A stretch of DNA of 62,451 nucleotides from Sunxiuqinia dokdonensis (GTDB lineage Bacteria; Bacteroidota; Bacteroidia; Bacteroidales; Prolixibacteraceae), in the NCBI RefSeq assembly GCF_001270965.1, contig NZ_LGIA01000190.1, forward strand, positions 1 through 62,451. Direction: 5' to 3'. Position numbers and translations under genes: made by a program. Shown here in pieces: positions 21,741 to 48,706 of the stretch. How positions within the stretch are numbered: the first letter of the stretch is position 1; each line of letters opens with the position of its first letter. The notes under the pieces are model-generated. The model did no database searches, was not told the DNA's origin, and was given only the letters and a program-made list of their open reading frames with translations.

Positions 21741-21928
21741 AGCTGAGGCTCAGCTGACCAGAAACAGTTGTTCGGTGGCCTGGCCGAGGCTCAGCTGAGC
21801 AGAAAAACATGTTCGACAGCTTAGCTGAGCCTCGGCTGAACAGAAAAAGACATTCGGCAGCCTGTCTGAGGCTCAGCTGGGCAGAAATAAACAAAAAACA
21901 AGCCAGCTGAGCCTCAGCCGGGCAGAAT
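21741..21928. repeat. five-unit 41-bp tandem palindrome array
   Basis: A 15-base core close to AGCTGAGGCTCAGCT starts at 21741, 21782, 21823, 21864 and 21905, exactly 41 bp apart. Each core is a near-palindrome with 6-7-base arms around one central G or C, and each is followed by CAGAA(A) at 21759, 21800, 21841, 21882 and 21923. Spacers are partly conserved (GTTCGG.GGCCTG-like). The array lies between the galE end and the kinase start. I do not recognise it as a named element. Confidence 0.88.
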
Positions 21929-22018
21929 CGAAGTGGCGGGAGATCTTCTGAGTCTTGTGAGGAAGAATCGTTTCTTTGGATGGCTTTGACATTGGGCAGG
22001 CTAAAGGCAAACCAAAAA

Positions 22019-22052
22019 CAAAAAGGCCCTGCCCATCGGACAAAGCCTTTCC
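22019..22052 (-). terminator. probable galE terminator
   Basis: On the minus strand AAAGGC and GCCTTT pair around a loop and are followed by T-rich sequence. A second hairpin, CCCCGA with TCGGGG, lies nearer galE at about 22081-22096. Confidence 0.6.
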
Positions 22053-22119
22053 CTTAAAATTTTCACCAGCCAACTGCGACCCCGAGGTGTCGGGGCAGGC
22101 TGGTCACCGCGACTGCCAA

Positions 22120-23148
22120 CTATTGAATCCCGCGTACGCGTTTTTCCCAGTTCCAGGCCGATAGCAGGGTTTCTTCGAGACCCACTTCGGCTTTCCAGCC
22201 CAGCTCTTCGTTGGCGTAGGTAGTATCGGCCCAAATTTTTTCGATGTCGCCGGCGCGGCGGGGAACAATTTTGTAATTCAACTTCACGCCGGTGGCTTTT
22301 TCAAAGCCTTTTACAATTTCGAGTACCGAATAACCATTGCCGGTTCCCAGGTTAAAAACTTCGTAGCTGGCTTTGTTTTTGTTTTCAAGGAGCCGGGCAA
22401 TCGCCACCACATGTGCTTTGGCCAAATCTACCACGTTGATGTAGTCGCGAATGGCCGATCCATCGGGCGTGTCGTAGTCGTCGCCAAAAACGCTCAGTCC
22501 TTCGCGCAGGCCGGCGGCGGTTTGGGTGATAAAAGGCACCAGGTTTTGCGGAACACCCAGTGGCAGCTCACCAATCAAAGCCGAGGGGTGTGCGCCAATC
22601 GGGTTGAAATAACGCAGGGCAATGCCTTTCAACTCCGGATAAGCCTTGATGCTGTCGTTCAAAATATCTTCATTCACCCGCTTGGTGTTTCCGTAAGGCG
22701 ATTCGGCGTCCTTGCGCGGCGTGCTTTCCGTTACCGGCAGCTTGTCGGGCTGTCCGTAAACCGTACATGACGAGGAGAACACCAGGTTGGCGATCTTGTA
22801 CTTGCGCTGACAATCGAGGATGTTCATCAGCGACACCAGGTTGTTGCGGTAATAGTGCAAGGGAATTTGCACCGATTCGCCCACCGCCTTGGAGGCCGCA
22901 AAGTGGATAATGGCAGCAATGTCCTGGTTTCGAACGAAAAATTCGTCGGTTTTTGCGGCATCGGCCAGGTCAAACTGTTCAAAAGCGGGGCGTTTCCCCG
23001 AAATCGTTTCGATATTGTCCAGCACGTCCTTGCTTGAGTTGGACAAATCATCCACGACGATCACCTCGTAACCTGCGTTCTGCAGTTCAACAACAGTGTG
23101 TGAGCCAATATAACCGGTTCCGCCGGTTACCAATATTTTCTGAGTCAT
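22120..23148 (-). CDS. galE: UDP-glucose 4-epimerase
   Basis: This 342-residue SDR enzyme interconverts UDP-glucose and UDP-galactose. The NAD-binding motif GGTGYIGSHTVVEL is at residues 8-21, the catalytic Tyr-Lys pair is in SPYGNTKRVNED, and substrate residues include LRYFNPIGAHPS. Length is usual for GalE. It is monocistronic, with a -7 element TAGTTTTG upstream. Confidence 0.95.
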   Translation of the reverse strand: MTQKILVTGGTGYIGSHTVVELQNAGYEVIVVDDLSNSSKDVLDNIETISGKRPAFEQFDLADAAKTDEFFVRNQDIAAIIHFAASKAVGESVQIPLHYYRNNLVSLMNILDCQRKYKIANLVFSSSCTVYGQPDKLPVTESTPRKDAESPYGNTKRVNEDILNDSIKAYPELKGIALRYFNPIGAHPSALIGELPLGVPQNLVPFITQTAAGLREGLSVFGDDYDTPDGSAIRDYINVVDLAKAHVVAIARLLENKNKASYEVFNLGTGNGYSVLEIVKGFEKATGVKLNYKIVPRRAGDIEKIWADTTYANEELGWKAEVGLEETLLSAWNWEKRVRGIQ

Positions 23149-23171
23149 AGTAATTGATTGAGTATTTTTTC

Positions 23172-23179
23172 CAAAACTA
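23172..23179 (-). promoter_or_regulatory. galE -7 promoter element
   Basis: TAGTTTTG on the minus strand matches TAnnTTTG, about 25 bases before the galE start. A TTG lies 24 bases upstream, a little further than usual. Confidence 0.5.
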
Positions 23180-23267
23180 CGAATTTATATGCAGTGCGTA
23201 ATTCAAAAACGGTGTGGATGTTAGGCCGCAACATTGAAAACTCGCTTAAAATGTTGAAAACTTAGGC

Positions 23268-23298
23268 TTGGCAGCGCATTAATTTTTCTTTACTTTTG
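23268..23298 (+). promoter_or_regulatory. promoter of the HU/SPOR protein gene
   Basis: TTG at 23268-23270 and TACTTTTG at 23291-23298 are 20 bases apart, as in the Bacteroidota consensus. The start codon lies only about 13 bases after the likely transcript start. Confidence 0.65.
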
Positions 23299-23317
23299 GA
23301 CGTAAATAATAATTCCT

Positions 23318-24229
23318 GTGGAAATTTTAAGCTACATCAAAGAACTCTTGCTACTGAATGACTGCGTGATCATTCCCGGCTTCGGAGGTTTTGTGAGCAA
23401 TTACAAACCGGCCAGGGTGCAGTCGGCACAGTTTACCCCACCAAGCAAGGAAATTAGTTTCAACGAAAAACTGACATTCAATGACGGCTTACTGATCAAT
23501 CATCTGGTTGAAAAAGAAGGCGACAATTATCTGGCTGCCAGCAAAAAAGTGGAACTGTTGGTGCAAGAACTCAATTACCGCCTGACTGATGGTGAAACCA
23601 TTGCGATTGACGGCGTTGGGCACTTGGCTTATGATAACAACGAAAACCTGACGTTCAATCCGGCGCTTCGCGAAAACCTCAACCTGGATTCGTACGGACT
23701 GACAGCTTTCAGCTACGAAACTTTGTACGCCAAAAAGCTGGTTCGTACAAAAATTACTGCCGAAGAGCGCGATGCGGTGCAGGTTTTCTTTCAGAAACGA
23801 ACTTTAAAAAAAGTATTGGTTGCTATTCCGCTGTTGTTTGCACTGGCGCTGGTTCCCATTAAAAATAACACCAGCAACCTGCAAAAGTCAAACCTCAGCA
23901 GCCTGACGGAAATGATGTCGGCCAGAGAATCCGTTCAGGAAATTGAACCAATTGCTGCTGTTGTTGAGGCATCGGAAGCTATTGAAGAGCCCGTTCAGAA
24001 TCATCCGTACTTTATCATTGGCGGAAGCTTCCGAAGCGAAGAAAATGCCGAAAAGTTTGTGAAGCAGAAGCAAGCCGAAGGATTCAACGCACAAAATATT
24101 GGCGTGATTAAAGGCTTGCATTATATTGCGTTGGATAGTTTTGCCAATTTCCAGCAGGCCAAAGCTGCTCAGGACAGAATAAAGGACGAAAAGCCCGAAT
24201 CTGGTGTTTGGGTTTACTTTAGAAGGTAG
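23318..24229 (+). CDS. HU-CCDC81 and SPOR domain protein
   Basis: This 303-residue protein starts with GTG. An N-terminal HU-CCDC81-type domain (residues ~1-60; YIKELLLLNDCVIIPGFGGF) is followed by a second such fold, then a membrane helix at about 164-180 (VLVAIPLLFALALVPI) and a C-terminal SPOR domain (YFIIGGSFRSEENAEKFVKQ). SPOR domains bind denuded peptidoglycan at the septum, so the protein may link the cytoplasm to the division wall. The binding partner of the HU part is unknown. Confidence 0.88.
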   Translation: MEILSYIKELLLLNDCVIIPGFGGFVSNYKPARVQSAQFTPPSKEISFNEKLTFNDGLLINHLVEKEGDNYLAASKKVELLVQELNYRLTDGETIAIDGVGHLAYDNNENLTFNPALRENLNLDSYGLTAFSYETLYAKKLVRTKITAEERDAVQVFFQKRTLKKVLVAIPLLFALALVPIKNNTSNLQKSNLSSLTEMMSARESVQEIEPIAAVVEASEAIEEPVQNHPYFIIGGSFRSEENAEKFVKQKQAEGFNAQNIGVIKGLHYIALDSFANFQQAKAAQDRIKDEKPESGVWVYFRR

Positions 24230-24267
24230 AAATAGTTCCCAAAAATTTGATGGTTTAAATGTGTTGC

Positions 24268-24296
24268 CCTGAATTGGATTCAGGGTTTTCTTTTTC
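24268..24296 (+). terminator. terminator of the HU/SPOR gene
   Basis: CCCTGAAT and ATTCAGGG form a stem with a 2-base loop, followed by TTTTCTTTTT. Confidence 0.85.
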
Positions 24297-24299
24297 TGC

Positions 24300-25301
24300 C
24301 TAATAGAATTTGCGGAATCCCACCACTTTTTTCACTTCTTTTAATGTGGCAGCAGCTGATTCTCGGGCTTTTTCAGCTCCCATTTGCGCCACCTTGGCCA
24401 AATAAGCTTCGTCTTCCAAAATGGTCACAATGCGCTCGCGAATGGGTGCGGTAAATTTCACGATGTCTTCGGCCAGCTGCTTTTTCATATCGCCATAACG
24501 GATTTCGCATTTGTTGTAGGCTTCATCAAAATCGGCAACCACTTCGGGCTGCGACACGATTTTCATCAGCGTAAATAGATTTTGAATAGCTTCCGGCTTT
24601 TCGGAATTCATTTCCGTTGGTCCCGAATCGGTCACGGCACGCATCACTTTTTTGCGGATTTCCTTTTCTGTGTCGTACAGGTTGATGGCGTTGCCTTCCG
24701 ATTTACCCATCTTGCCGCTCCCATCCAGGCCGGGAACCTTAATCAGATCAGCTCCGTCGAAGGTAAATGGTTTTGGAATGGGGAACACTTTCGATTTGTA
24801 CATGCGGTTGAATCGTTTGGCAAACTTGCGCGCCATCTCCAGGTTTTGCTCCTGGTCTTTCCCTACCGGCACATAGTGCGCTTTGTGGATGATGATATCC
24901 GAAGCCATCAACACCGGATAAGTCAACAGGCCGGCATTCACGTTCTCAGGTTGTTGTCGCGCCTTGTCCTTAAACGAAGTGGTGCGCTCCAACTCTCCCA
25001 GGTAAGCATTCATGTTCAGAATGGTGTACAGCTCGCTTACTTCGGGAACATCGCTCTGAATAAAAATTGTCGATTTTTCAGGATCGATTCCACAGGCCAG
25101 GTATTCGGCCAGCACTTGTTTTACCCCCGCCTGCAAGTTTTCAGGAGTTGGGTGGGTGGTCAACGAGTGAATGTCGGCAATAAAGAAGTAGCAGTTGTAA
25201 TCTTCCTGCATGCGCAGAAAATTTTGTACTGCTCCAAAGTAATTGCCTAAGTGTAGATATCCGGTTGGCCTGATGCCACTAACGACGGTTGCTTTATTCA
25301 T
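24300..25301 (-). CDS. trpS: tryptophanyl-tRNA synthetase
   Basis: This 333-residue class I synthetase charges tRNA-Trp. The HIGH-type motif is GYLHLGNYFGA near residue 13, and the KMSKS-type motif is GKMGKSEGN near 195. The start is the ATG at 25301 (MNKATVVSGIRPTG); longer starts add a non-homologous tail. It is divergent from the TrpB-like gene, whose leader is Trp-responsive, so the two tryptophan genes share one intergenic region. Confidence 0.95.
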   Translation of the reverse strand: MNKATVVSGIRPTGYLHLGNYFGAVQNFLRMQEDYNCYFFIADIHSLTTHPTPENLQAGVKQVLAEYLACGIDPEKSTIFIQSDVPEVSELYTILNMNAYLGELERTTSFKDKARQQPENVNAGLLTYPVLMASDIIIHKAHYVPVGKDQEQNLEMARKFAKRFNRMYKSKVFPIPKPFTFDGADLIKVPGLDGSGKMGKSEGNAINLYDTEKEIRKKVMRAVTDSGPTEMNSEKPEAIQNLFTLMKIVSQPEVVADFDEAYNKCEIRYGDMKKQLAEDIVKFTAPIRERIVTILEDEAYLAKVAQMGAEKARESAAATLKEVKKVVGFRKFY

Positions 25302-25331
25302 TTTGACTTGTTCTTCGATGAAAATGAGCTG

Positions 25332-25339
25332 CAAAAATA
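25332..25339 (-). promoter_or_regulatory. trpS -7 promoter element
   Basis: TATTTTTG on the minus strand matches TAnnTTTG, with a TTTTCG -33-like element 18 bases upstream. The leader would be about 25 bases. Confidence 0.55.
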
Positions 25340-25418
25340 GCTTGAATCCTCGAAAGACGAAAATTTATTTTCTGGGACAAAAGCACATCTCAAAAAGAGG
25401 CTTTGAAACATAATTGGC

Positions 25419-25448
25419 TTGCAAACTTTAATTTATTCGCTAGTTTTA
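25419..25448 (+). promoter_or_regulatory. promoter of the TrpB-like gene leader
   Basis: TTG (25419-25421) and TAGTTTTA (25441-25448) are 19 bases apart. The -7 differs from the TAnnTTTG consensus at the last base. Transcription would begin near 25455, just before the leader peptide. Confidence 0.6.
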
Positions 25449-25466
25449 CGGGAAATTAACGAATTG

Positions 25467-25556
25467 ATGTATCAAATGCCTTTATACGGAACTGAGTGGC
25501 ACTGGCGTAACGTGAAAATGGAAACGCTGGAGCAGACTGTTGTTTTACGATCATAA
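25467..25556 (+). CDS. tryptophan leader peptide
   Basis: This short frame of 29 codons starts at ATG 25467 and stops at TAA 25554-25556. It contains two Trp codons within three codons (GTEWHWRN; TGG at 25497 and 25503). It is followed by an intrinsic terminator before the TrpB-like gene. Stalling of ribosomes at these Trp codons would prevent termination when tryptophan is scarce. It resembles the described Bacteroid-trp leader class. Confidence 0.78.
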   Translation: MYQMPLYGTEWHWRNVKMETLEQTVVLRS

Positions 25557-25563
25557 AGGCCGT

Positions 25564-25604
25564 GAAATGGGGTTTGTTGCAGATGCAGCAGGCCCCATTT
25601 TAAT
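25564..25604 (+). terminator. attenuator hairpin before the TrpB-like gene
   Basis: AAATGGGG and CCCCATTT pair, with an inner GTTGC/GCAGC stem, followed by TTTTAATTT. It lies between the Trp leader peptide and the TrpB-like coding start. Confidence 0.78.
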
Positions 25605-25633
25605 TTAAAAGACGAATTAAAAACCAATAAATT

Positions 25634-27010
25634 ATGGCCAGACAAAAACACATCTACCTGGACGAAGTGGACATGCCCAAGCAGTGGTACAATTTAGCTC
25701 CCGATCTTCCAACACCTTTAAACCCGCCACTTGGGCCCGACGGCAAGCCGGTGACTCCCGAAATGTTGGCGCCTGTTTTTCCGATGAACCTGATTGAGCA
25801 GGAAGTCAGCCAGGAACGCTGGATTGATATTCCTGAAGAAATTCGCGAACACCTGTTTCGCTGGCGTCCAAGTCCGCTGGTTCGGGCTTACGAACTGGAG
25901 GCCGCTTTGGGAACTCCGGCTAAAATTTACTACAAAAATGAAGGGGTTTCGCCTGCCGGAAGCCACAAACCCAATACAGCCATTCCACAGGCCTGGTACA
26001 ACAAGCAGTTTGGCATCAAAAAACTGACGACTGAAACCGGTGCCGGACAGTGGGGATCAGCCTTGTCGTTTGCCTGCTCAGTCATTGGCGGCATCGAGTG
26101 CAAAGTATTTATGGTGCGCGTAAGCTTTGAACAGAAGCCTTTCCGCAAAATGCTGATGAACACCTGGGGAGGAACCTGCGTTGCTAGTCCAAGTATGGAA
26201 ACCCAAGCCGGACGAGACATCCTGGCACAATATCCGGACACACCCGGATCATTGGGAATTGCCATTTCCGAAGCGGTTGAAGCTGCCGTTAGCGACCCAA
26301 CCGGCAAAACCCGCTATACGCTGGGTTCAGTGTTGAACCATGTGATGTTGCACCAATCCATCATTGGGCTGGAAGCCAAAAAGCAGCTGGCCAAAGTCGG
26401 AATCGACAAACCCGATGTTGTGATTGGCTGCTGTGGCGGTGGAAGTAACTTTGCCGGAATCTCCTTCCCGTTTATGTACGACAAAATTCATGGGGCCGAC
26501 ATCCAGATTATTGGTGCCGAGCCTTTTTCGTGCCCTACGCTGACCAAAGCGCCATTTATTTACGACAATGGCGATGTGGCGCAAATGACACCGCTTCTGG
26601 CCATGCACAGCCTGGGTCACAACTTTGTTCCGGCGCCCATTCATGCTGGTGGTTTGCGTTATCATGGCATGGCGCCCCTGGTGAGTGCGGCCCTGCGCGA
26701 CGGACTGATGGAAGCACAGGCCATTCACCAAAGCGAATGTTTCGAAGCTGGCTTACTCTTTTCAAAAACCGAAGGCATCATTCCCGCTCCGGAAACCACG
26801 CATGCCATTGCTGCTGTGATTCGCGAGGCTAAAAAGGCCAAGGAAGAAGGCAAGGAAAAAACAATCCTGTTCAACTTCAGTGGCCACGGATTGATGGATT
26901 TGGTAGGTTACGACAAATACCTGAATGGCGAACTGCACGACTACGAATACCCGGAGTCGGAGATTGCGCTGAACCTCGAAAAACTTCAGGGTTATCCGCT
27001 TCCAAAGTAA
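25634..27010 (+). CDS. TrpB-like PLP enzyme (TrpB2 type)
   Basis: This 458-residue protein matches the longer TrpB2 form of tryptophan synthase beta chain, which makes tryptophan from indole and serine. The PLP lysine is Lys112 in AGSHKPNTA, and the phosphate-binding loop is [10 protein letters not shown]. No trpA is adjacent, as is usual for TrpB2. A Trp-codon leader and attenuator precede it, which independently supports a role in tryptophan synthesis. Another TrpB may exist elsewhere in the genome. Confidence 0.93.
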
Positions 27011-27022
27011 AAGAGATTAGTT

Positions 27023-27051
27023 TTGATCGGATGACTTGAAGCCCATCCGAT
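27023..27051 (+). repeat. palindrome after the TrpB-like gene
   Basis: GATCGGATG and CATCCGATC form a 9-bp perfect stem. The loop and inner part (TGACTTGAAG) match the palindrome between pstS and pstC at 9150-9185. It precedes the real terminator. Confidence 0.6.
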
Positions 27052-27061
27052 CAGTAAATAT

Positions 27062-27094
27062 TAAAGTCCTGTCGAATTTGGCAGGACTTTTTTT
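27062..27094 (+). terminator. terminator of the TrpB-like gene
   Basis: AAAGTCCTG and CAGGACTTT form a stem followed by a T-run. Confidence 0.85.
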
Positions 27095-27190
27095 ATGAAT
27101 CAAAAAGCAAGCATTAACCCAAGATCCAATCACTGCCCATGAATTCCCCAATCCCCAATGACTAATCATCCAATGACCAACTTTTTTCTT

Positions 27191-27246
27191 TTAATCAAAC
27201 TTTAATCAGACTGTAATTCTGCTTTAATCAGATCGAAGTAGTTTTG
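27191..27246 (+). promoter_or_regulatory. Pho-box promoter with 11-bp repeats and -7 element
   Basis: TTAATC at 27191 and 27202, GTAATT at 27213 and TTAATC at 27224 follow at exact 11-bp steps, within repeats of the form CTTTAATCAGA and CTGTAATTCTG. TAGTTTTG at 27239-27246 matches TAnnTTTG, 9 bp after the last repeat. The layout matches the porin promoter and resembles PhoB activation from a site overlapping -35. Confidence 0.78.
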
Positions 27247-27269
27247 AATCGAACAAAAACTTCAAAAAG

Positions 27270-27629
27270 ATGAAAGCATTAATCGTTACCGTTTTATTCG
27301 CTGGAATACTTTCTTTTTCGTTTGCCTCTGAGAAAGAGAACCAACAGGCCGAAAAAGATAAAACCGAAACCAAATCGTTTACCACGCTGCGTGGTCAGGT
27401 GGTAGACCAGAAGACCAACGAAGCGTTGGTCGGCGTAAAAGTTGTTTTGGAAGGAACCGACCAGGTTGCCTACACCGATTTTGACGGAAAATACCACTTT
27501 GAAAACATTGAAACCGGAGCCTATAATTTGACAGCTTCCTATATTTCCTACGAGCAAACTTCGGTTGAAAATGTCGGGGTAAGTCTCAAAAAGAGCCAGG
27601 TTGATTTTAGTTTAAGAACAGCAAACTAA
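27270..27629 (+). CDS. small secreted carboxypeptidase-like regulatory domain protein
   Basis: This 119-residue protein has a signal peptide (MKALIVTVLFAGILSFSFAS), a charged linker, and one carboxypeptidase-regulatory-like beta-sandwich (TLRGQVVDQKTNEALVGVKV, DFDGKYHFENIETGAYNL). The domain resembles the N-terminal domain of TonB-dependent receptors but stands alone. A Pho-box promoter precedes it, so it is probably made under phosphate limitation. The function is unknown; an accessory role at the outer membrane is an inference. Confidence 0.85.
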   Translation: MKALIVTVLFAGILSFSFASEKENQQAEKDKTETKSFTTLRGQVVDQKTNEALVGVKVVLEGTDQVAYTDFDGKYHFENIETGAYNLTASYISYEQTSVENVGVSLKKSQVDFSLRTAN

Positions 27630-29413: not shown

Positions 29414-31519
29414 TTAGTTCTTCAACCCGCTTCGTTCGAGCAGGGCATCAACCGTGGGTTCTTGTCCGCGGAAGCGGATGTAGAGTTCCATTGGCGGCTC
29501 GCTTCCTCCTTTTTCAAGAATATGGGTACGGAAAGCATCGGCGGTTTTCCGGTCGAAAATTCCATTGGCTTTGAAAACTGAAAAGGCATCAGCATCGAGC
29601 ACTTCGGCCCACTTGTAGCTGTAATAGCCGGCAGCATAACCGCCCGCAAAAATATGCGCAAAAGAGGTACTGGTCAAGCTGCCCTCCACCCGCGGAAAGA
29701 GCTCGGTGGGTGCCATGGCTTCGGCCTCAACTTTGGCAACAGGCTTTGTCAGCGGCTCGGTTATGGTGTGGTAGGCCATATCGAGCATACCCAAGCTTAG
29801 CTGGCGTTCGGAAGCGTAACCTGACTGAAAATTCTTGGCGGCAATAATTTTTTCAACCAAGTCTTCCGGAAGCTTTTCGCCGGTTTCGTAGTGCACGGCA
29901 AAGCGGTCGAGCCACTCTTTTTCGTAGGCCCAGTTTTCATGAATTTGGGAAGGCAGTTCCACAAAATCCCAGAATACGTTGGTTCCGCCTGTACTTTCGT
30001 ATTGACATTGGCTCAGCATGCCATGCAGTCCGTGTCCAAACTCATGCAGAAAGGTGGTCACCTCGTCGAAAGTAAGCAGCGAAGGCTTGGTGCTGGTCGG
30101 TTTGGTAAAGTTGGTCACAATACTCACGTGCGGACGAATATCCTCTCCATTTTCCAGCCACTGTCCGCGGAAATCGGTCATCCAGGCGCCGGAGCGTTTG
30201 CCGTCGCGTGGGAAAAAGTCCATGTACAGTACGGAAATAAATTTCCCTTCGGTATCAAAAACTTCGTAGGCTTTTACGTCGGGATGATAAACCGGAATCG
30301 ATTTGTTTTCTTTCAGTTCCAATCCATACAGTGTTTTGGCCAGGTCAAAAACCCCGTCAATCACTTTTTCAAGTTTGAAGTAAGGTTTCACTTCTTCTTC
30401 CTTGAATCCGTAGCGGGCATTTTTCAGTTTCTCTGAATAGTAGGCCCAATCCCAGCGTTGCAATTCGTCGTTGAAGCCTTCCGCTTTTGCAAAATCGACC
30501 ACTTCGGCAAAATCTTTTTCAGCAGCAGGTCGCGAAGCCTGGTGCAGGTCTTCCAAAAAGTCCAACACCCGCTCGGGCGTTTCGGCCATGCGACGCTGAA
30601 GCGTGTAATCGGCGTGCGATTCGTATCCCAGCAATTTTGCTTTCTCCAGCTTCAGTGCCACCACTTTGGTTATGATTTCCTTGTTGTCGTATTCGTTGTC
30701 CTTGTTGCCTTTGGTAGAAAAGGCCCGGAACATTTTCTCACGCAGCTGCCGGTTGTCAGCATAAGTCATAAACGGAATGTAGCTGGGATATTGCAAGGTG
30801 AAAATCCAACCGTCCTTGTTTTTTTGCTGAGCCGTTTGTGCTGCCGCTTCTTTGGCAAAATCGGGGAGCCCGGCCAAATCGTCTTCATTGGTAATATGCA
30901 GTTCGAAAGCGTTGGTTTCGGCCAGCACGTTTTCCGAAAACTTCAGACTTAATTTCGACAGTTCGCTGGTGATTTCGCGGTAGCGGGCTTTGTCGGCCTC
31001 ATTTAGATTAGCGCCACTGCGTACAAACCCGAGGTACGAATTTTCGAGCAAGGTTTTTTGTTCCGGATTCAAATTGAGGGCATCTTTCTGCTCATACACC
31101 GCTTTTACACGGGCGAACAAATCGGGGTTGAGCGAGATGTCGTTGCCAAACTCCGAAAGCATGGGCGCCACTTCCTGCGCAATTTTCTGAATCTCGTCGT
31201 TGGTTTCGGCCGAGTTCAGGTTGAAAAAGATTTTGCGAATCGTTGACAAGCGATCGCCCGATCTGGTCATGGCCACTATCGTATTTTCGAACGAAGGCGC
31301 TTGCGGATTGTCAATAATCGTCTGAACTTCTGCACGTGCTTCTTCTATGGCCGCTTTGAATGCCGGAAGAAAGTGCTCATTTTTTATCTCCCCAAACGGA
31401 GCCGTTTGATGAATGTGTTGAAAAGGTTTCAGTAAGGGATTTTCGTTGTTCTCTGCTTGTGTTGTCATCATAGTCAATAAAACTAAAAGGGTGGCCAGCA
31501 CCCTGTAATGTGTTTTCAT
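29414..31519 (-). CDS. dcp: secreted M3 family peptidyl-dipeptidase (Dcp type)
   Basis: This 701-residue zinc peptidase removes dipeptides from peptide C-termini. A signal peptide is present (VLATLLVLLTMMTTQA). The zinc-binding motif is HEFGHGLH near residue 490, with SQIHENWAYEKE downstream supplying the third ligand Glu. Length and layout are typical of Dcp. A second M3 peptidase of PepF type lies 2 kb away, also exported, so both act on peptides outside the cytoplasm. Confidence 0.92.
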   Translation of the reverse strand: MKTHYRVLATLLVLLTMMTTQAENNENPLLKPFQHIHQTAPFGEIKNEHFLPAFKAAIEEARAEVQTIIDNPQAPSFENTIVAMTRSGDRLSTIRKIFFNLNSAETNDEIQKIAQEVAPMLSEFGNDISLNPDLFARVKAVYEQKDALNLNPEQKTLLENSYLGFVRSGANLNEADKARYREITSELSKLSLKFSENVLAETNAFELHITNEDDLAGLPDFAKEAAAQTAQQKNKDGWIFTLQYPSYIPFMTYADNRQLREKMFRAFSTKGNKDNEYDNKEIITKVVALKLEKAKLLGYESHADYTLQRRMAETPERVLDFLEDLHQASRPAAEKDFAEVVDFAKAEGFNDELQRWDWAYYSEKLKNARYGFKEEEVKPYFKLEKVIDGVFDLAKTLYGLELKENKSIPVYHPDVKAYEVFDTEGKFISVLYMDFFPRDGKRSGAWMTDFRGQWLENGEDIRPHVSIVTNFTKPTSTKPSLLTFDEVTTFLHEFGHGLHGMLSQCQYESTGGTNVFWDFVELPSQIHENWAYEKEWLDRFAVHYETGEKLPEDLVEKIIAAKNFQSGYASERQLSLGMLDMAYHTITEPLTKPVAKVEAEAMAPTELFPRVEGSLTSTSFAHIFAGGYAAGYYSYKWAEVLDADAFSVFKANGIFDRKTADAFRTHILEKGGSEPPMELYIRFRGQEPTVDALLERSGLKN

Positions 31520-31607: not shown

Positions 31608-32201
31608 TCATGAGTGATTTTTTTTCTTCTTGCGTTTTTTCTTCTCAACCGACCAGCCAAACTTGCCGATGGGTTTACCGATTTTAAAATAGTGCCCGTG
31701 CAAATAGCAGATCGGGTCGGATTGCTTGAGGCTGAAGGCACCGGTTTCGGGATCGATGTAGCGTTCGTCGGCCAGCACATTCACCACTTCGGAGATGAAC
31801 ATGTCGTGCGTGCCCAGCGGCACAATGTCCTTCACCCGGCACTCAATGCTGATGGGTGCTTCGGCTACGATGGGCGCTTTGACCACGGTAGCCGGGGCAG
31901 GCGTGAGTCCCATTTCTTTCCATTTGTCGTATTTCCTGCCCGAGCGAACCCCGCACCAATCGGTGGCGCGGGCCAGCTCTTCGGTGGTCAGGTTGATCAC
32001 GTATTCGCCGGTTCGCTTGATGATTTCGTAGGAATGGCGGCCGGGCCTGACCGAAATGTAACACATGGGCGGATCGCTGCACAGGGTGCCTGTCCAGGCG
32101 ATGGTAATCAGGTTATGTTCGTCGGGTGTTTCGCCACAACTGACCAGCACGGCCGGCAGCGGATACACCATGGTTCCGGGTTTCCAGTTCACTTTTCCCA
32201 T
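31608..32201 (-). CDS. flavin reductase family protein
   Basis: This 197-residue FMN-binding split-barrel protein shows MVYPLPAVLVSCGETPDE, LITIAWTGTLCSDPP and MCYISVRPGRHSYEIIKRTG. The C-terminus is an unusual lysine-rich tail (EKKKRKKKKNHS). The start at 32201 (MGKVNWKPGT) fits the family. The partner enzyme is not evident. Confidence 0.88.
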   Translation of the reverse strand: MGKVNWKPGTMVYPLPAVLVSCGETPDEHNLITIAWTGTLCSDPPMCYISVRPGRHSYEIIKRTGEYVINLTTEELARATDWCGVRSGRKYDKWKEMGLTPAPATVVKAPIVAEAPISIECRVKDIVPLGTHDMFISEVVNVLADERYIDPETGAFSLKQSDPICYLHGHYFKIGKPIGKFGWSVEKKKRKKKKNHS

Positions 32202-32339
32202 TGTTCCGTTTTCGTTTCGCGTTGCGGTTGACCTGACGCTTGCTGATCCGCAACAGTTTTTTATTGCTGCAAAGGTAAAAAAAGTCGGCTGGAACGGAGG
32301 TCTCTTCCGAAATGTCCGCCTGGCATAGCTTGAAATCAT
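32202..32339. other. leader region of the flavin reductase gene
   Basis: No gene is supported between the reductase start and the repeat array. No clear promoter is seen. Confidence 0.4.
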
Positions 32340-32570
32340 TTCAAAATTCATCGGAATGAAAGTTGATGGTTGATTTTCGCTTCCAATTCTGTGGAAGCAC
32401 AAGTTGATAACTGGTTTTCATTTCCAATTCTGTAGAAGTGAAAGTTAGCAGCTGATTTTCATTTCCAATTCTGTGGAAATGAAAGTTGACGGCTGATTTT
32501 CGTTTCCAATTCTGTGGAAGTGAAAGCTGGCGGTTGATTTTCGCTTCCAATTTCATGGAAATAAAATGAA
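32340..32570. repeat. 41-bp tandem hairpin array (five units plus a degenerate sixth)
   Basis: TTCCAAT starts at 32381, 32422, 32463, 32504 and 32545, exactly 41 bp apart, and a degenerate unit precedes at 32340. Each unit forms a hairpin: TTTCATTTCC with GGAAATGAAA around loop AATTCTGT in the third unit, and GCTTCC with GGAAGC in the first. These two show compensating base changes. The array lies between the methyltransferase end and the reductase start. It is not related in sequence to the 41-bp array at 21741. Confidence 0.88.
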
Positions 32571-32641: not shown

Positions 32642-33445
32642 CTACGGCTTTGGGCTTGCAACAAGAGAATAAACCATCGGGATCTTGTTGCCGAAGTGTT
32701 TTATCCGGAACTTTTTGGGGGCAAGTTCAACCGTGTTGTTGAAACAGTTGTAGGGCGAATAGTCAAACTCGTCAAGCGAGTTAATTTCGAGTTTGTTTTG
32801 AATCAGACTATTCACCACCTCGCTCAGGCTGTGGTTCCAGCACACAAACTCCTGGCTGATTTTGGCCTCGCGGTCGGCATAGGTGCCGGTTTCGGTTTCA
32901 ACAATGGCGCCGTCGTTGAAATAGTTGTAAGCCACTTTTTCGAATTGATCGTCAAACATCCACACCACAGGATGAAATTCAACAAAAACAAAACGCCCGT
33001 TGGGTTTCAGAAAGCGGGAAATGAGCTTCGCCCAGCGGTCCAGGTCGGGCAGCCAGCCAATGGTGCCATAGCTGGTAAAAACCAGGTCGAACTGTTGGTT
33101 CAGCTGGTGGGGCAAATCGTAAATGTCGCAGCAAATGAAGGTGGCATCCACCTGGGTTTTTTCGGCCAGCAGGCGGGCTTGCTCAATGGCTTTGTCCGAC
33201 AGGTCGACGCCGGTTACCTGGGCTCCCATGCGTCCCAGCGACAGGGTATCCTGCCCAAAATGACATTGCAGGTGCAGGATGCTTTTCCCCCTAACATCGC
33301 CCAAAAGTTGCAGCTCAATGGGGTTGAGCGAGCTGTTGCCAGCCAGAAAACCCGGCAGATCGTAGAAGTCGGATTGCAGGTGGCTGGAAATTTTATTGTT
33401 CCACGACTGTTTGTTGATTTCGATGTAGTTTTCCTCGAGCTTCAT
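32642..33445 (-). CDS. class I SAM-dependent methyltransferase
   Basis: This 267-residue protein has the SAM-binding motif I region ILHLQCHFGQDTLSLGRMGA, the acidic end of strand 2 GVDLSDKAIEQA, and motif IV-like FDLVFTSYGTIGWLPD. The substrate is unknown. It is on the minus strand, between the PepF-type peptidase terminator and the 41-bp array. Confidence 0.85.
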   Translation of the reverse strand: MKLEENYIEINKQSWNNKISSHLQSDFYDLPGFLAGNSSLNPIELQLLGDVRGKSILHLQCHFGQDTLSLGRMGAQVTGVDLSDKAIEQARLLAEKTQVDATFICCDIYDLPHQLNQQFDLVFTSYGTIGWLPDLDRWAKLISRFLKPNGRFVFVEFHPVVWMFDDQFEKVAYNYFNDGAIVETETGTYADREAKISQEFVCWNHSLSEVVNSLIQNKLEINSLDEFDYSPYNCFNNTVELAPKKFRIKHFGNKIPMVYSLVASPKP

Positions 33446-33605: not shown

Positions 33606-35498
33606 TTACTCTTTCTCCTTCTTGTCCAAAATCTTCTCAATTTCATCCATCACCTTGTTCATCGATGCGATGGCCTTGTCGAATGGCTCGGAGCTGGTCA
33701 TGTCCACACCAGCATTTTTCAGCAGTGGAATCGGGTAGTCTGATCCGCCTGCCGAAAGGAAATCCATGTAGTTTTTCAGGGCTTGCTTGTCGCCACTCAT
33801 CACTTTTTCGGCCAGCGAAATGGATGCCGTAAACGAAGTGCTGTACTGATAAACATAGAAATTGTAGTAGAAATGCGGAATGAAAGCCCACTCCATATTG
33901 ATGTAATCATCCACATAGCAAATATTCTGGTCGTGCCCGTAGTAGCGGTTCACAATGTCGGTGTAAATCTCAGAGAACTCATCACCGGTGAGGGGCTTGC
34001 CTTTTTCGACTTCTTCGTGAATTTTCAGTTCGAACTCGGCAAATTGTGTTTGGCGGAACAAAGTGCCTTTGAAACCATCAAGCCATTCCATGAGCAGCGA
34101 CAGGCGAACATCGTCATCTTCCACCTTGTCCAGCATGTAGTTAAAGAGCAGCACTTCGTTAAAAGTGGAAGCCACTTCGGCCACAAAAGTCACGTAATCG
34201 GCTGTGGGGTAAGGCTGGGTTTTATTTGAAAAATAACTCTGCATGGTGTGCCCCAGTTCGTGCGCAAAGGTGCTCACGTCGGAGTACAGATCGTTGTAGT
34301 TCAGCAAAATAAAAGGATGACCATCGTAGAAGGCACCATTGGAATAAGCCCCGGAGCGTTTGCCGGGCGTGGGATATACATCAATCCAGCGTTCGTCAAT
34401 AGCTTTTTTTACCGTGTTCACATATTCTTCGCCCAGGGGTTTCAGGGCCTCCAGAATAATTTCGGCTCCTTCATCATAGGTATACTTCAAATCAACATTT
34501 TTGACCACAGGAGCATACAGATCCAGGTATTTCAGTGTATCTACACCCATCATCCTTTTTTTGATTTTCAGGTAGCGGTGAAAGGCTGGCAGGTTTTCAT
34601 TTACGTTATCGACCAGCGAGTGGTACACTTCAACCGGAATATTATTGGGATAGAGCGACGCTTCGAGCGATGACTCGTAATGGCGGGCGCGGGCGCGGAA
34701 CATGTCGGCCTTGATATTGCCATACAGCATTTCGCCGTAGCTGGCACGAAAACGGGCGAAGTTGTTCCAGTAAGCGTCGAACACAATCTCGCGGTCGGCA
34801 CGGTTGGATGATGCCCGGTAGCGGCTATACTCAGCGCTGCCAATTTCCAGTTTCGACCCGTCAGACAGCGTGACCTCCGGCTTGGGCATTTCAGCATTGG
34901 AGAAGGTGCCGTAAACCGACTGCGGAACCGAGGACACCATGCCCGACAGGGCCATGATGCGTTCTTCGGCCTCACTTAGCGAGTGCGCTTTGGTGCGAAA
35001 CATGTTTTCCAAGCCCATGCGATACACTTCAAGCTTGGGCTCTTCCTTCATGAACTTTTCGATGGTGGACCAATCGGCTGCTAAAATCTCCGGCTCGATA
35101 AAGGCTGCCTTGGCTCCAAAGTTTGAAAACAACGACTGCAACTCTTGTTTCATGCCGTTGTACTTCATGTTGCGGGTGTCCAAATCGGAACTCATGCCGG
35201 CATACAAATAAATTTTGGAGGCTTCTTTGGCTATTCCGGTGTTAAATTCCAGCGCTTTCAGCAAATTCCCGGCCGATTGGGTCAATGTTCCCTTAAACTG
35301 TTCCACTTCATCCAGCCTGGAAGACAAATCGTCAAACGCCTGTCGCCAGGCTTCGTCCGATTCGTATAGGTCATTTAAATCCCACTTGTACTGTTCCGGG
35401 ATCTCTTCCCGTGTTTTCTGACTGTAACTATTCATGGCTGCAAACATCGCCAAAATAGTCAACACGATCATGTTTGTTTTCAGATTAAATCGCTTCAT
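33606..35498 (-). CDS. pepF: exported oligoendopeptidase F
   Basis: This 630-residue M3-family zinc peptidase cleaves short peptides. The zinc motif is HELGHTMQSYFS at about 410, with FVAEVASTFNEVLL carrying the third ligand. Unlike the cytoplasmic enzyme of Gram-positives, it has an N-terminal signal (MIVLTILAMFAAMNSYSQ), so it probably works in the periplasm or outside. Product assignment rests on the PepF layout. Confidence 0.92.
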   Translation of the reverse strand: MKRFNLKTNMIVLTILAMFAAMNSYSQKTREEIPEQYKWDLNDLYESDEAWRQAFDDLSSRLDEVEQFKGTLTQSAGNLLKALEFNTGIAKEASKIYLYAGMSSDLDTRNMKYNGMKQELQSLFSNFGAKAAFIEPEILAADWSTIEKFMKEEPKLEVYRMGLENMFRTKAHSLSEAEERIMALSGMVSSVPQSVYGTFSNAEMPKPEVTLSDGSKLEIGSAEYSRYRASSNRADREIVFDAYWNNFARFRASYGEMLYGNIKADMFRARARHYESSLEASLYPNNIPVEVYHSLVDNVNENLPAFHRYLKIKKRMMGVDTLKYLDLYAPVVKNVDLKYTYDEGAEIILEALKPLGEEYVNTVKKAIDERWIDVYPTPGKRSGAYSNGAFYDGHPFILLNYNDLYSDVSTFAHELGHTMQSYFSNKTQPYPTADYVTFVAEVASTFNEVLLFNYMLDKVEDDDVRLSLLMEWLDGFKGTLFRQTQFAEFELKIHEEVEKGKPLTGDEFSEIYTDIVNRYYGHDQNICYVDDYINMEWAFIPHFYYNFYVYQYSTSFTASISLAEKVMSGDKQALKNYMDFLSAGGSDYPIPLLKNAGVDMTSSEPFDKAIASMNKVMDEIEKILDKKEKE

Positions 35499-43029: not shown

Positions 43030-43054
43030 TATTTTTTCTTAAAGTTCAGGAAAT

Positions 43055-44518: not shown

Positions 44519-44716
44519 AATAAATTTATTAAGAATGGTTGGTTTAGATTTATTTATTACATGATCTTATTTATTTCGACTTCAAATCATCGCTTATTTT
44601 CAGGTATCGCATCGCAGAAAAGCGCCAATTCAAAATCCGAAGTAGCAAATTTAAAAATTAAAATGGTTTTTCAGGATTTCCCATGTCAGATTCCAATAAT
44701 TTAGACTGAATCATGT

Positions 44717-45673
44717 TTAGTCCGGCTGCTTCCCATCATTGGATCCTGATAAGTTTTCGACCCGAAGGTGACTCTGAAGATCTTCATCTACGCCTGCGGG
44801 GTTGGTGCTGTCCTGGTAGGGCGAAGTAATCCGGCGTCCGCCATATTCAAAGCGCTCGGTCATGATATTCAGAATCTCATTGGCCGTCGATTCAACAGGT
44901 TTATTGGAGACGTGAACCACCGTAAATCCGCCTTTTCTGAAAATAAAAGAAGCATTTCGGATTTCGCGTTTCACTTTTTGCTCATCGGTATAGTTGGAGC
45001 TGTCGTGTCGGGGCAGGCTTTTGAGCCGTTTTATGCGGTGGGCAATCAAATGCTGGATGCCGATATGCAAACCAAATACGCGTTGCGGATCAATTTCGAA
45101 CAGCTCCTGCGGCGGTTTTATGCCGTCGACCAGCGGAACGTTGGCCACTTTCCAGCCATACATGGCCAGGTAAACACTGAGCGGCGTTTTGCCCGAGCGC
45201 GACACTCCGCACAAAACAATCTCGGCTTTGTGTAAACGCTCGGGGCTCATGCCATCGTCATGATTCAGGGTAAACTCAATGGCTTCAATCCGGTCGAAAT
45301 ATCGTTGGTTGATTTCGCGAAAAAGGCCCGGCGATTTCAGCGAGGCAATGCCCAGCTCCTGGTCCAGGTAATCAGCCAGCTTGCCCATAAAGTCAATCTG
45401 TTTTACCTTGTGTTTTTTCGCCAGGCCGATCAGGGCTTTCCGCAAGTCGGAATTAACCATGGTGTGGGTAATCAGTCCATCTTCCTTTTTGGCCCGAAGA
45501 ACCACCTCTTCCAGCTTTTTCTCGTCCGACACATCTGGGACAATGGTCACCGGCACGTTGTTATTTGGGTACTGAATAAGCACGGACTGAACCATGTTGT
45601 TTCCCGCCAGCCCTTTTCCTCCGGATACGACGTAAATGGGTTTCCCTTTTTCTTTTTTTCCTGAATTTGGCAT
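44717..45673 (-). CDS. PpsR-like kinase/pyrophosphorylase (DUF299)
   Basis: This 318-residue protein matches the family that switches pyruvate phosphate dikinase or PEP synthase on and off. The P-loop is GVSRSGKTPLSVYLAMYG, preceded by KAEIVLC, and the downstream LVDGIKPPQELFEID is shared by the family. Phosphate-dependent regulation of the dikinase is inferred. The middle of the gene, near 45008, contains AGCCTGCCCCGACA, a string also found after galE. Confidence 0.88.
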   Translation of the reverse strand: MPNSGKKEKGKPIYVVSGGKGLAGNNMVQSVLIQYPNNNVPVTIVPDVSDEKKLEEVVLRAKKEDGLITHTMVNSDLRKALIGLAKKHKVKQIDFMGKLADYLDQELGIASLKSPGLFREINQRYFDRIEAIEFTLNHDDGMSPERLHKAEIVLCGVSRSGKTPLSVYLAMYGWKVANVPLVDGIKPPQELFEIDPQRVFGLHIGIQHLIAHRIKRLKSLPRHDSSNYTDEQKVKREIRNASFIFRKGGFTVVHVSNKPVESTANEILNIMTERFEYGGRRITSPYQDSTNPAGVDEDLQSHLRVENLSGSNDGKQPD

Positions 45674-45731
45674 CGCTGTCGTGTTTGTTTGCTGTTAAAA
45701 ATAGAACAAAGCTTCGCGCAAAAATGATTCG

Positions 45732-47558
45732 TCACTGCTGCAACCACAGCCACTGAAGCTGCACTGGCGTGTTTCGACCGGCCTCGAGCTGCATGGAGAT
45801 TTCGTACTCGCCGGCCTCCGAAAAGTGGATTGTGCCCAGCCGGTGTGAGACAAAATTTGGTATGTGCCAGTTGCTGTTGGGCTCGCCAACAGTTAAGCCG
45901 GTTGGAGCAATCGGCTGTCGAACGGTTTTGTTGGCCGCAGTGACCTGAATTTGGCCGGCCGATTTTTCTCCCTGAAAGCTGTAGGAAGCGTCGACTTTGT
46001 AAACGCCCGGCTCATCGATAAACAGTTTCCAACTGGCCTGGTACGACTTGGGGACCACCACATGGGCCGGAACCGTTCCGTGCTGTTGGGCTGCGATCAG
46101 TTCACGATCTCCGCTTTCTGAAATCAAATTGTCAGGATTCAGTGCGTAACCGCCATCAGCCGTTTTAGCAACCAAGCCCTCGCTGATTGCCGGTTTTGCT
46201 GCATACTCCAGCACCACCACCGAAATCAGTGGGTCAGGCTGCTCTGCCGGCAAGCCGATTTCAGTAAACACATCCTGATGCTTTACCGTCAGCGGACTTT
46301 GCAGCTTATCGCTCAACACATAAGCCCGGGCGGGCGGAGCGCTAATTCCCGTTACCGGAAGCTTCCGGTTAAACGGCCAGTTGTAAACATGCAGGTAAAT
46401 TTTGTAGCCCTCGCCGGTTTGTTTGCAGGTCATTTTACCCCAGTCGTGCTGGTTTTCGGGCAGGTCGAATGCTTCGGCATTGTAGATCGCTTCGCCGTTG
46501 ACTTTGAGCCACTGCCCCATTTCAAGCATGCGCTGCGAGATTTCGTAAGGCACCTGCCCATCGGCCCGCGGACCAATATTCAGCATGTAATTTCCATTCA
46601 AACTCACATTACCGATGAGCGCTCGCAGTAAACCGGAAGTTGATTTCCATTCGGTATCGAGCTGATGAAAACCCCAGGAGTGGGCCACGGTTCCGGGCGA
46701 TTGCCAGGGGTAGTCGAGTTTGGTGGTGCCCAGCTGGTTATCGCCCAAGGTGCGGAAATCGATGTCGCTGTCTTCTTCCATCGAAAGGCCCAGGCGCGAG
46801 TTCACCAGGCAGTCGGGTTGCAGTTCCCGGATCAGGCTTTTGAGCTGCAGCAGCTGGGCTTTGCTGACAATCGATTCGGAATGATTGATCCACATGTCGA
46901 ACCAAATCATCCCGATGGGCCCGTAGTTGGTAAGCAGCTCACGCATTTGCGGCATCACTTTCTCCTGCCAGTACTGGTCGTATTGCGCTGCGGAAATGGG
47001 GTAAATCTCTTTGGAATGATCCCAGCCGTACGGATGTTCCCAATCGACCCAGTGCGAGTAGTAGAGGCCCAGCTTGAGCCCGTGTTTTTGGCAAGCCTCG
47101 GCCAGTTCCTTTACAATATCGCGCCGCGGCTGGGTGTGGTCCGCTACATCGTAGTCCGACACCTGGCTGTCCCACAGCGCAAATCCGTCGTGGTGCTTGG
47201 CCGTGAGGGTGACGTATTTCATGCCCGATTGTTTGGCCAGCAGCACCCATTCTTCAGGGTCAATCGCGTCCCAGTCGAATCGGTCGAGCAGGCTCAGGTA
47301 TTCGGTTTTGTCGATGCTGTTGCGGTAGAAAATCCACTCGCCGTAGTTGTTGTCGTGCCGCAGTTTTTCGCCTTTCCAAACCCCTTCGGCACCACTGTAA
47401 ATTCCCCAATGGATAAACATGCCAAAGCGGGCATCGACAAACCACCGGGCACGTGGGTTGGTTTGCGACTGGCCAAAAAGCTGGGTGGCCATCAATAGGG
47501 AAAACAACAGCGAAAGCAGGCTTCGCCGGATAGCGTGTGATGGTTTGGATGGGTTCAT
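45732..47558 (-). CDS. alpha-L-fucosidase, GH29
   Basis: This 608-residue secreted enzyme cleaves alpha-L-fucose from glycans. A signal peptide is present (SLLSLLFSLLMATQLFGQ). The GH29 core shows FGMFIHWGIYSGAEGVWKG, TAKHHDGFALWDS and GMIWFDMWIN, where the Asp is the expected nucleophile. The C-terminal ~270 residues are beta-rich accessory domains. The sugar-carrier genes are close but on a separate unit. Confidence 0.93.
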   Translation of the reverse strand: MNPSKPSHAIRRSLLSLLFSLLMATQLFGQSQTNPRARWFVDARFGMFIHWGIYSGAEGVWKGEKLRHDNNYGEWIFYRNSIDKTEYLSLLDRFDWDAIDPEEWVLLAKQSGMKYVTLTAKHHDGFALWDSQVSDYDVADHTQPRRDIVKELAEACQKHGLKLGLYYSHWVDWEHPYGWDHSKEIYPISAAQYDQYWQEKVMPQMRELLTNYGPIGMIWFDMWINHSESIVSKAQLLQLKSLIRELQPDCLVNSRLGLSMEEDSDIDFRTLGDNQLGTTKLDYPWQSPGTVAHSWGFHQLDTEWKSTSGLLRALIGNVSLNGNYMLNIGPRADGQVPYEISQRMLEMGQWLKVNGEAIYNAEAFDLPENQHDWGKMTCKQTGEGYKIYLHVYNWPFNRKLPVTGISAPPARAYVLSDKLQSPLTVKHQDVFTEIGLPAEQPDPLISVVVLEYAAKPAISEGLVAKTADGGYALNPDNLISESGDRELIAAQQHGTVPAHVVVPKSYQASWKLFIDEPGVYKVDASYSFQGEKSAGQIQVTAANKTVRQPIAPTGLTVGEPNSNWHIPNFVSHRLGTIHFSEAGEYEISMQLEAGRNTPVQLQWLWLQQ

Positions 47559-47712
47559 TTTTTCGATTTAATTGTTGGGACAATCCGTACCACCAACAAA
47601 TGTATAAAATGTTACCGACTCCCCATCTTAGCGACGAACGACTTGCTTATTATTCGAAAATGCCGGGCGGTTTGGAAGGCCATTTGCCGTAGTTATTTTC
47701 AACCAGGCTTTC
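47559..47712. other. short intergenic region
   Basis: No gene or clear regulatory site seen between the fucosidase start and the hypothetical gene end. Confidence 0.4.
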
Positions 47713-48390
47713 CTATTCTTCTTCCGATTGATCCTCAAACGAATGAACCTCACATGCGTATTCCAGGTTGGTAAACTCGTCTTTGGTGAGCCATTTTTCG
47801 GAAGTCGTCAACGCATAGTCGTGGTCGCCAAGCGATTGCAAGTCCCACACAATTCCTTCAGCCTCAGGAAAAGGCTCCTTCCCTTCCAGTTGGTCACCCA
47901 GCAAGCGTTTAATCAAATTGTTTTCAGAAAGGCCATGGCTTACAGCTTTCAAGGCGGTTTCCTTATTGATTTCAGCCCCATTGTTCGGTTCTCCTTTCAT
48001 TTCGAACTGGACGATGTTGACCTTGGTGAGCGGAAATTTTCCGTTGTAGGCTTTATAAAGCAGCTGGTTGATGTTGAACAACTCCTGATGAATGTAGATG
48101 TCGGAATAGTTTTCGGCGACTTTTTCACGCAGCATTTCGTGCGAAATATTATCAATCTGTCCGTCGGCCAAAACATCCGAAAGCCTGTATTCGAGCAGGA
48201 TGGCAGCCGCCTCGTTCGGCTCAAAGTCAGAAATGGCCAGAAACAGGTATTCCTGCAGTTCGGCCGGTTTCAACTGTTCCGCATCCGGGTACTCGAATCG
48301 TTCCAACAGCGCTTTAAAGTCGTCGTTATTCCACGCTCCTTCCAGCTCATCGGCGTTTTTTACATCTTTTATCTTCACTAAATACTTCAT
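47713..48390 (-). CDS. hypothetical acidic cytoplasmic protein
   Basis: This 225-residue protein has no signal peptide or membrane helix and is rich in Glu/Asp. I do not recognise a family. Visible segments include LEGAWNNDDFKALLERFEYP, LFLAISDFEPNEAAAILLEY and YALTTSEKWLTKDE. The start is the ATG at 48390 (MKYLVKIKDVK). A 22-bp tandem array lies upstream. Confidence 0.72.
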   Translation of the reverse strand: MKYLVKIKDVKNADELEGAWNNDDFKALLERFEYPDAEQLKPAELQEYLFLAISDFEPNEAAAILLEYRLSDVLADGQIDNISHEMLREKVAENYSDIYIHQELFNINQLLYKAYNGKFPLTKVNIVQFEMKGEPNNGAEINKETALKAVSHGLSENNLIKRLLGDQLEGKEPFPEAEGIVWDLQSLGDHDYALTTSEKWLTKDEFTNLEYACEVHSFEDQSEEE

Positions 48391-48570
48391 GCAACTTGTC
48401 TTTGGTTTCTATTATACCAACCATTGGGCAAGCGCATTGTTTTCGTTGATTTGGAAGCTGGCGAATAAGCGCATCGAATCATGAATTGTTAAGCGAAAAC
48501 GTTCGGAATTGAACGTGCTGTTGCCTGTACCGTATCACCCGATCATCATCAAAATCAGGAATCAAACTTC
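48391..48570. other. region upstream of the hypothetical gene
   Basis: No gene is supported. Inverted repeats such as GTTCGGAATTGAAC occur near 48501. Confidence 0.4.
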
Positions 48571-48706
48571 CATCACGATGTCGCCAAATTTTCATCGGGG
48601 AGAAAATAAAATTGCATCGGGAAGAAAAATTATTTCCATCGGGGAGAAAATTTATTTGCATCAGGAAGGAAATATATTTTTATCGGGATAGAAATAAATC
48701 GGAATC
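48571..48706. repeat. 22-bp tandem array
   Basis: CATCGGG-like cores start at 48571 (CATCACG), 48593, 48615, 48637, 48659 (CATCAGG) and 48681 (TATCGGG), exactly 22 bp apart. Most units follow the form TTTNCATCGGGNAGAAAAT. Several fold as small hairpins, e.g. ATTTTC with GAAAAT around ATCGGGGA. It lies between a minus-strand gene and the HU gene on the plus strand. The unit is not related to the two 41-bp arrays. Confidence 0.85.

Follow-up and report, generated by a model that had tools for sequence, protein, structure and literature searches.

We analysed a stretch of 62,451 nucleotides from Sunxiuqinia dokdonensis, referred to here as the window (contig NZ_LGIA01000190.1, C190 in our numbering), which is part of a 4.96-Mb genome assembly in 225 contigs (GCF_001270965.1, hereafter G000). 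The window contains three intergenic tandem arrays with periods of 41, 41, and 22 bp, denoted array 1, array 2, and array 3. An earlier note on the window had described these arrays and their hairpin cores; the arrays and the palindromic nature of their units were confirmed. Briefly, we located arrays with Tandem Repeats Finder (TRF), scored periodicity by ungapped matching at fixed lags, and compared the symmetry of the units with that of column-permuted controls. TRF reported 41 bp x 3.6 copies for array 1 (21742-21887, with an 82-bp row extending to 21918), 41 bp x 4.9 for array 2 (32353-32552), and 22 bp x 5.2 for array 3 (48586-48699). Dyad symmetry exceeded that of the controls in array 1 (p=0.003), array 2 (p=0.007), and array 3 (p=0.003).

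The arrays had been placed in gaps of 420-630 bp. This holds for array 1 (629 bp) and array 3 (421 bp), but the mechanically called open reading frame (ORF) of the flavin reductase begins within array 2. The gap there is probably about 420 bp, because nucleotide similarity to relatives stops between 32201 and 32226. By eye, the GAAA stretch said to follow each hairpin was found in arrays 1 and 3, whereas in array 2 it sits in an arm of the palindrome. The three arrays are mutually unrelated in sequence, as the earlier note had it, but none is unique, since each has sisters elsewhere in G000. The start codon of a gene matching the HU-HIG family PF18291 over positions 3-125 of 125 lies 112 bp past array 3.

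Array periods fall into discrete classes

We searched 60 stretches of G000 together with the window (1,070,394 bases, 386 intergenic regions), calling an array at an ungapped lag score of at least 22 and using one dinucleotide shuffle per region as the control. Lags that attained this score were the multiples of 7, which are heptamer arrays, and 20-22 and 40-44 with their own multiples; 0 of the shuffled regions attained it. Heptamer regions (lags 7, 14, 28, 35 and so on) were dropped before the 20-22-bp class was counted. Thirty intergenic arrays were left, of which 25 lay at 20-22 or 40-44 and five had bases of 8, 8, 13, 47, and 63. At lags 25-39 the signal was confined to 28, 32, and 35 (multiples of 7 or 8) and fell to zero once heptamer regions were dropped. 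The intergenic lag spectrum gave no signal at 50-53, where the 52-nt class discussed below would fall. Three helical turns (31-32 bp) were not represented, and the rule is therefore more restrictive than a whole number of turns.

The arrays thus belong to a single class whose period is quantised and whose sequence is locus-specific, as had been proposed. The scan of this sample and of relatives uncovered more arrays, with periods that did not vary freely. We regard it as positive because 25 of the 30 arrays sit at 20-22 or 40-44 bp and none at 25-39.

Relatives in the genus shared the period classes, with 4 periodic regions in 240 kb of genome G001 and 10 in 340 kb of G003, not all of them arrays of the type described here. 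In G006, 240 kb yielded a single region, with lag 63, and no periodic region was found in 200 kb of G007, which belongs to another genus. At 80 loci from other Bacteroidota, we found six intergenic arrays of 22-24 bp with differing sequences, two of them significantly palindromic. For a hold-out of a further 200 kb, predictions were written beforehand. It contained five arrays, three at 21, 40/41, and 41 bp and the others at 12 and 78, and the period prediction held; the 78-bp array is apparently two tRNA genes. No array was present in another hold-out, made up of 29 short loci (84 kb, of which 11.6 kb intergenic).

Other repeats were observed in the same material. The intergenic heptamer arrays of G000 (GATGCTT, GTTATCG, ATCAAGC, and others) reached the lag-7 threshold in 16 of 386 regions, at places including L067 on C5, L098 on C25, and L080/L106 on C150 (L, locus; C, contig). 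An 11-bp array, equal to one helical turn, was found in G001 (L225:4360-4461, 9.3 copies, 96% match), and 231-bp repeats (x5.3, 90% match) lie inside a coding region of G000 contig C210 (L084:15634-16866).

Palindromic units are typical of the 22-bp arrays

We analysed unit symmetry across the arrays. All seven 22-bp arrays of G000 were palindromic at p<0.05, and their column conservation was mirror-symmetric around the dyad (percentile at least 0.81). Among 41-bp arrays, 4 of 6 in G000 and 4 of 4 in G003 were palindromic. Counted by sequence family and including the hold-out, the 22-bp class was palindromic in 5/5 cases and the 21-bp class in 1/7 (Fisher p=0.015, post hoc). The long 21-bp arrays (8-14 copies) are non-palindromic, with strong column heterogeneity (G000 C150:48249, C205:4688, C205:14539, C25:35767, and L307), and a partner gene is known for none of these five. 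Coding repeats were considered for the arrays of 21 and 42 bp and rejected, as mismatches depended on codon phase at p<0.05 in 1 of 15.

Pairing between the arms of one copy was no better than pairing of arms from different copies (p<0.05 in 1 of 81 tests). This is compatible with protein half-sites, and also with a palindromic ancestor that has decayed, but it does not fit stems preserved through compensatory changes. The process suggested in the earlier note, in which hairpins are duplicated, is therefore not favoured. Gap events were few in the arrays (57 versus 1727 mismatches) relative to intergenic alignments of G000 with its closest relative, G004 (55 versus 570, p=1e-7), a difference that is suggestive only, as gap scores differed between the two alignments and the arrays had been found by ungapped matching.

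Most HU-HIG genes tested in the genus lie beside 20-23-bp arrays

A reverse transcriptase had been suggested as a linked gene. We saw none, the single RVT_1 match in G000 lying at C181:88360-88776, with surroundings that were not studied. The linked genes that emerged instead encode HU-HIG and DUF6261 proteins.

In addition to the gene beside array 3, a second HU-HIG gene lies 14 bp past another 22-bp array (C176:49980). PF18291 matched eight genes in G000, seven above the cut-off; we took the five with E<=4.6e-20 as HU-HIG and the others as ordinary HU or doubtful. The test set of ten genes, one of them broken, was completed by three genes from G003 and by two out of five PF18291 matches in G004, all three genomes being of the genus. 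A periodic segment (19-24 or 40-46 bp, score at least 14, a threshold chosen after seeing the data) was found within 350 bp of 8/10 HU-HIG genes and of 97/952 control genes. The broken gene (L322, around G000 C149:84445-84819) lies between a 20/41-bp palindromic array and a 25-bp array.

The palindromes, compared by eye, followed the genes. Three orthologues (74-96% identity) carry a common TTAATACGTATTAA-like palindrome and two others (88% identity) a common GACCTAGGTC-like one, and paralogues (19-44% identity) have differing palindromes. Units of CACACGTG were found both at G003 C4 and in a gene-less G000 array (C161:12009).

DUF6261 genes lie beside 41-bp arrays

Among the neighbours of ten 41-bp arrays, four were complete genes of 231-245 aa whose starts face the array at 92-191 bp. 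All four belong to DUF6261 (PF19775; Pfam E 3.8e-38, 1.1e-40, 2.8e-26, and 3.7e-19). Three array families were involved: the array-1 family at G003 C5, plus a truncated homologue at G004 C240; the array-2 family, upstream of the gene, at G000 C142 and G003 C7; and a third family at G003 C1. Arrays 1 and 2 of the window are gene-less copies of DUF6261-linked families. A 41-bp array lies at most 500 bp upstream of 4/4 complete DUF6261 genes of the genus (about 4 Mb of sampled ORFs) and of 13/998 genes overall, a comparison that is partly circular because the four genes had been found through the arrays. A profile built from the four proteins found no further DUF6261 in these ORFs.

We therefore sought loci outside the genus by protein alone. 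The two that were found are free of this circularity. The first, the only DUF6261 in the plasmid collection, is from Prevotella nigrescens (NZ_CP082843.1, E=1.2e-44), where a 41-bp array of 4.9 copies runs into the annotated start. The surrounding 98 kb contain arrays of 16, 22, and 23 bp and otherwise none of 40-44 bp; the dyad test was borderline (p=0.055). This gene and its array (L340, L345) are a few kilobases from the conjugative transposon genes mobB, mobC, and tra. The second, the only one in the phage collection, is on an unverified gut contig (MT839608.1, E=1.2e-40), where five TTGATTACAATCAA-like palindromes spaced 41, 42, 41, and 42 bp lie upstream of the gene and the best lags locus-wide are 41 and 42. 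Further searches for DUF6261 and HU-HIG, in the viral_contigs collection, in plasmids with two DUF6261 queries, and with a DNA pattern in viral_contigs, were empty, and blastn with the P. nigrescens array matched its own record alone.

Sister copies, turnover, and flanking genes

One unit sequence recurs at 2-3 loci per genome. Of 140 genomes of the family, 3 contain the array 1 sequence, and these three belong to the genus. We compared four sites with a relative, and the array was missing at all four. In G004, a 776-bp stretch with array 3 and its HU-HIG gene is replaced by 50 bp, and the array-2 site holds other DNA plus one unit-like copy. The 21-bp arrays C205:4688 and C205:14539 are missing from the matching G003 sites.

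Two genes for M3-family peptidases bracket array 2 (window 29414-31519 and 33606-35498). The nearest named records to a neighbouring M3 peptidase are metagenome-assembled genomes of Prolixibacteraceae (69 and 66% identity; records very near G000 may be excluded). Elsewhere in the window, a SAM-II (S-adenosylmethionine) riboswitch (65.3 bits, 18652-18713) lies upstream of an S-adenosylmethionine synthetase gene (17295-18548).

Table 1 Arrays of the window, their flanking genes, and sister arrays in G000.
Feature	Position	Strand	Remarks
Array 1	21742..21927	none	41-bp palindromic unit, core CTGAGgCTCAG, ~4.5 copies
Array 2	32353..32566	none	41-bp unit, inverted arms GGAAatGAAA / TTTTCaTTTCC, ~5 copies
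Array 3	48563..48699	none	22-bp palindromic unit (TTTTCATCGGGgAGAAAA), ~6 copies
Tetratricopeptide repeat (TPR) histidine kinase, array 1 flank	19463..21490	-	not DUF6261
NAD-dependent epimerase/dehydratase, array 1 flank	22120..23148	-	
Flavin reductase, array 2 flank	31608..32402 (mechanical ORF)	-	real start probably near 32201-32226
Methyltransferase, array 2 flank	32642..33445	-	
Gene flanking array 3	47713..48390	-	no Pfam match
HU-HIG gene, 124 aa	48812..49186	+	PF18291, E=1.7e-30; candidate DNA-binding partner of array 3
Array 1 sister	C176:65772-65972		G000
Array 2 sisters	C6:43668-43867; C142:10042-10358		G000
Array 3 sisters	C205:30393-30524; C146:42942-43028		G000

Interpretation and alternatives

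We suggest that the arrays are rows of palindromes to which proteins would bind, repeated at intervals of about two or four helical turns, a reading to which the sequence comparisons lead us to give a probability of roughly 0.55. Palindromic sites at about two (20-23 bp) or four turns (41-42 bp) would align bound proteins on the same face of the DNA. In each module, the array would adjoin the gene of the DNA-binding protein that uses it, and a few further copies, without the gene, would lie elsewhere in the chromosome. HU-HIG proteins may own the 22-bp type, as with array 3 and gene 48812-49186, and DUF6261 proteins the 41-bp type, with arrays 1 and 2 as gene-less copies. Every paralogue would recognise its own palindrome and act on its own promoter region, and the protein would nucleate a nucleoprotein filament at distal copies of the array, where it may affect the genes nearby.

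Several observations weigh against this interpretation. For the 41-bp type, DUF6261 is absent beside half of the ten arrays (array-1, array-2, and L252 families), the linkage within the genus is in part circular, as noted above, and TRF reports no repeat on MT839608.1, whose motif was seen by eye before it was scored. To our knowledge, DUF6261 is not known to bind DNA. For the HU-HIG genes, two of the ten score 13 and 10, below the post hoc threshold, the ten genes amount to about seven orthologue groups, and several of the linked arrays are downstream of the gene. In gut Bacteroidales, where 11 of 16 matching plasmid records were examined, HU-HIG genes showed no array enrichment (3/11 loci versus 18/53 control genes). 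In terms of symmetry, only 1/6 of the 21-bp and 2/5 of the 42-bp arrays in the first G000 sample were palindromic, and these have no known partner gene. The hold-out prediction of dyad and mirror symmetry for 41-bp arrays failed, as both the 40/41-bp and the 41-bp array were non-dyadic.

The strongest alternative, although an improbable one in our estimate, is that the arrays are neutral minisatellites without function, made by local duplication that favours lengths near 21 or 42 bp, as set by polymerase or helix geometry, and that palindromes and neighbouring genes are incidental. In favour of this, the absence of arrays from a relative at all four sites compared indicates fast turnover, neighbouring copies within an array are mostly more similar than distant ones, and heptamer arrays are likewise frequent in G000. 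However, orthologous HU-HIG genes retain one palindrome in three species, the DUF6261 linkage is seen again in Prevotella and the gut contig, conservation in the 22-bp arrays is mirror-symmetric, and indels in the arrays are few.

We consider it less likely still that the arrays are mobile elements bearing a minisatellite, or palindromes moved by a Y1 transposase of the type associated with repetitive extragenic palindromic (REP) sequences. On the side of such elements, one unit recurs between unlike flanks, array 1 and its G004 C240 relative have about 50 bp in common on each side, and Y1_Tnp has four matches in G000, three over the cut-off. However, the flanks of the other sister arrays are not alignable, no terminal inverted repeats were seen by eye in the flanks compared, and no array lies near the three Y1_Tnp genes inspected, out of four.

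Transcribed hairpin arrays, acting as RNA attenuators, terminators, or small RNAs, are the least likely of the three, for although RNA folding is much stronger than in shuffles for arrays 1 and 2 (z on the two strands -5.0/-3.7 and -7.2/-3.3) and arrays are enriched in convergent gaps (8/24 versus 24/206, Fisher p=0.009, post hoc), array 3 folds weakly (-1.7/-2.2), Rfam gives no match at the arrays, and the arms show no covariation within copies, which argues against RNA hairpins.

Comparison with known repeats

We compared the arrays with known systems. A CRISPR array (clustered regularly interspaced short palindromic repeats) was rejected, as the units abut without spacers; cas genes were not searched for. 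Plasmid iteron and centromere arrays such as sopC, with 43-bp units containing an inverted repeat, are similar in having palindromes at 20-22 or about 43 bp beside the gene for a binding protein. They differ from the arrays described here, which come in many families per chromosome with gene-less copies and are linked to HU-HIG or DUF6261 rather than Rep or ParB. REP sequences and bacterial interspersed mosaic elements (BIMEs), with their REP-associated tyrosine transposases (RAYTs), are intergenic palindromes in tandem clusters, many of them at convergent gene ends, with one family per genome. The first three features are shared by the arrays, and the inspection of Y1_Tnp genes did not reveal a RAYT linkage.

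BrickBuilt, a minisatellite and miniature inverted-repeat transposable element (MITE) of Porphyromonas gingivalis, also consists of intergenic tandem units in a Bacteroidales species, at 19 loci with variable copy number (PMC4596501). It is a single sequence family with a leader, a tail, and terminal inverted repeats and a unit of 23 nt, whereas the arrays of the window have units of 41, 41, and 22 bp and belong to a set of many families whose flanks are mostly unshared.

The closest precedent is the work of Subirana and Messeguer (PMC8161180), who described, in other bacteria, species-specific families of non-coding tandem repeats whose size is fixed at 20-23 or 52 nt while the sequence varies. 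The earlier suggestion of a wholly undescribed system is therefore not supported. The arrays described here share the fixed period of 20-23 nt, the differing sequence of each family, and the confinement of families to a few related species, as seen for array 1. An abundant second class of 52 nt was reported in Firmicutes. The authors noted that the common size corresponds to two helical turns, found a few repeats of 40-41 nt, and suggested a protein polymerising on DNA. The accessible text of PMC8161180 makes no reference to partner genes, a relation between dyads and period, or Bacteroidota, and contains neither 'Bacteroidetes' nor 'palindrom'. The general class is thus known. The association with genes and the contrast of 22/41 with 21/42 bp are absent from that text, and the former looks new; no DUF6261 literature search was made.

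Implications for constant-size repeats

The presence in some bacteria of dozens of tandem repeats that share one size but have many sequences is a published open question (PMC8161180). A broader proposal, which we hold tentatively and at somewhat less than even odds, is that HU-HIG and DUF6261 each represent a family of self-addressed DNA-binding proteins. Each paralogue would keep an array of its private palindrome next to its gene and seed copies of the array in other intergenic gaps, forming local filaments there. The arrays would be helically phased, at 22 or 41 bp, and the unit length would thus read out the geometry of the protein. If this is true, protein geometry would explain why repeat size is constant while sequence varies, a puzzle already in print. 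It would also give a first function to DUF6261, a family of unknown function in Pfam, and a sequence-specific role to HU-HIG proteins. With a sequence-diverse linked protein family for each repeat size, the question of constant size would become directly testable.

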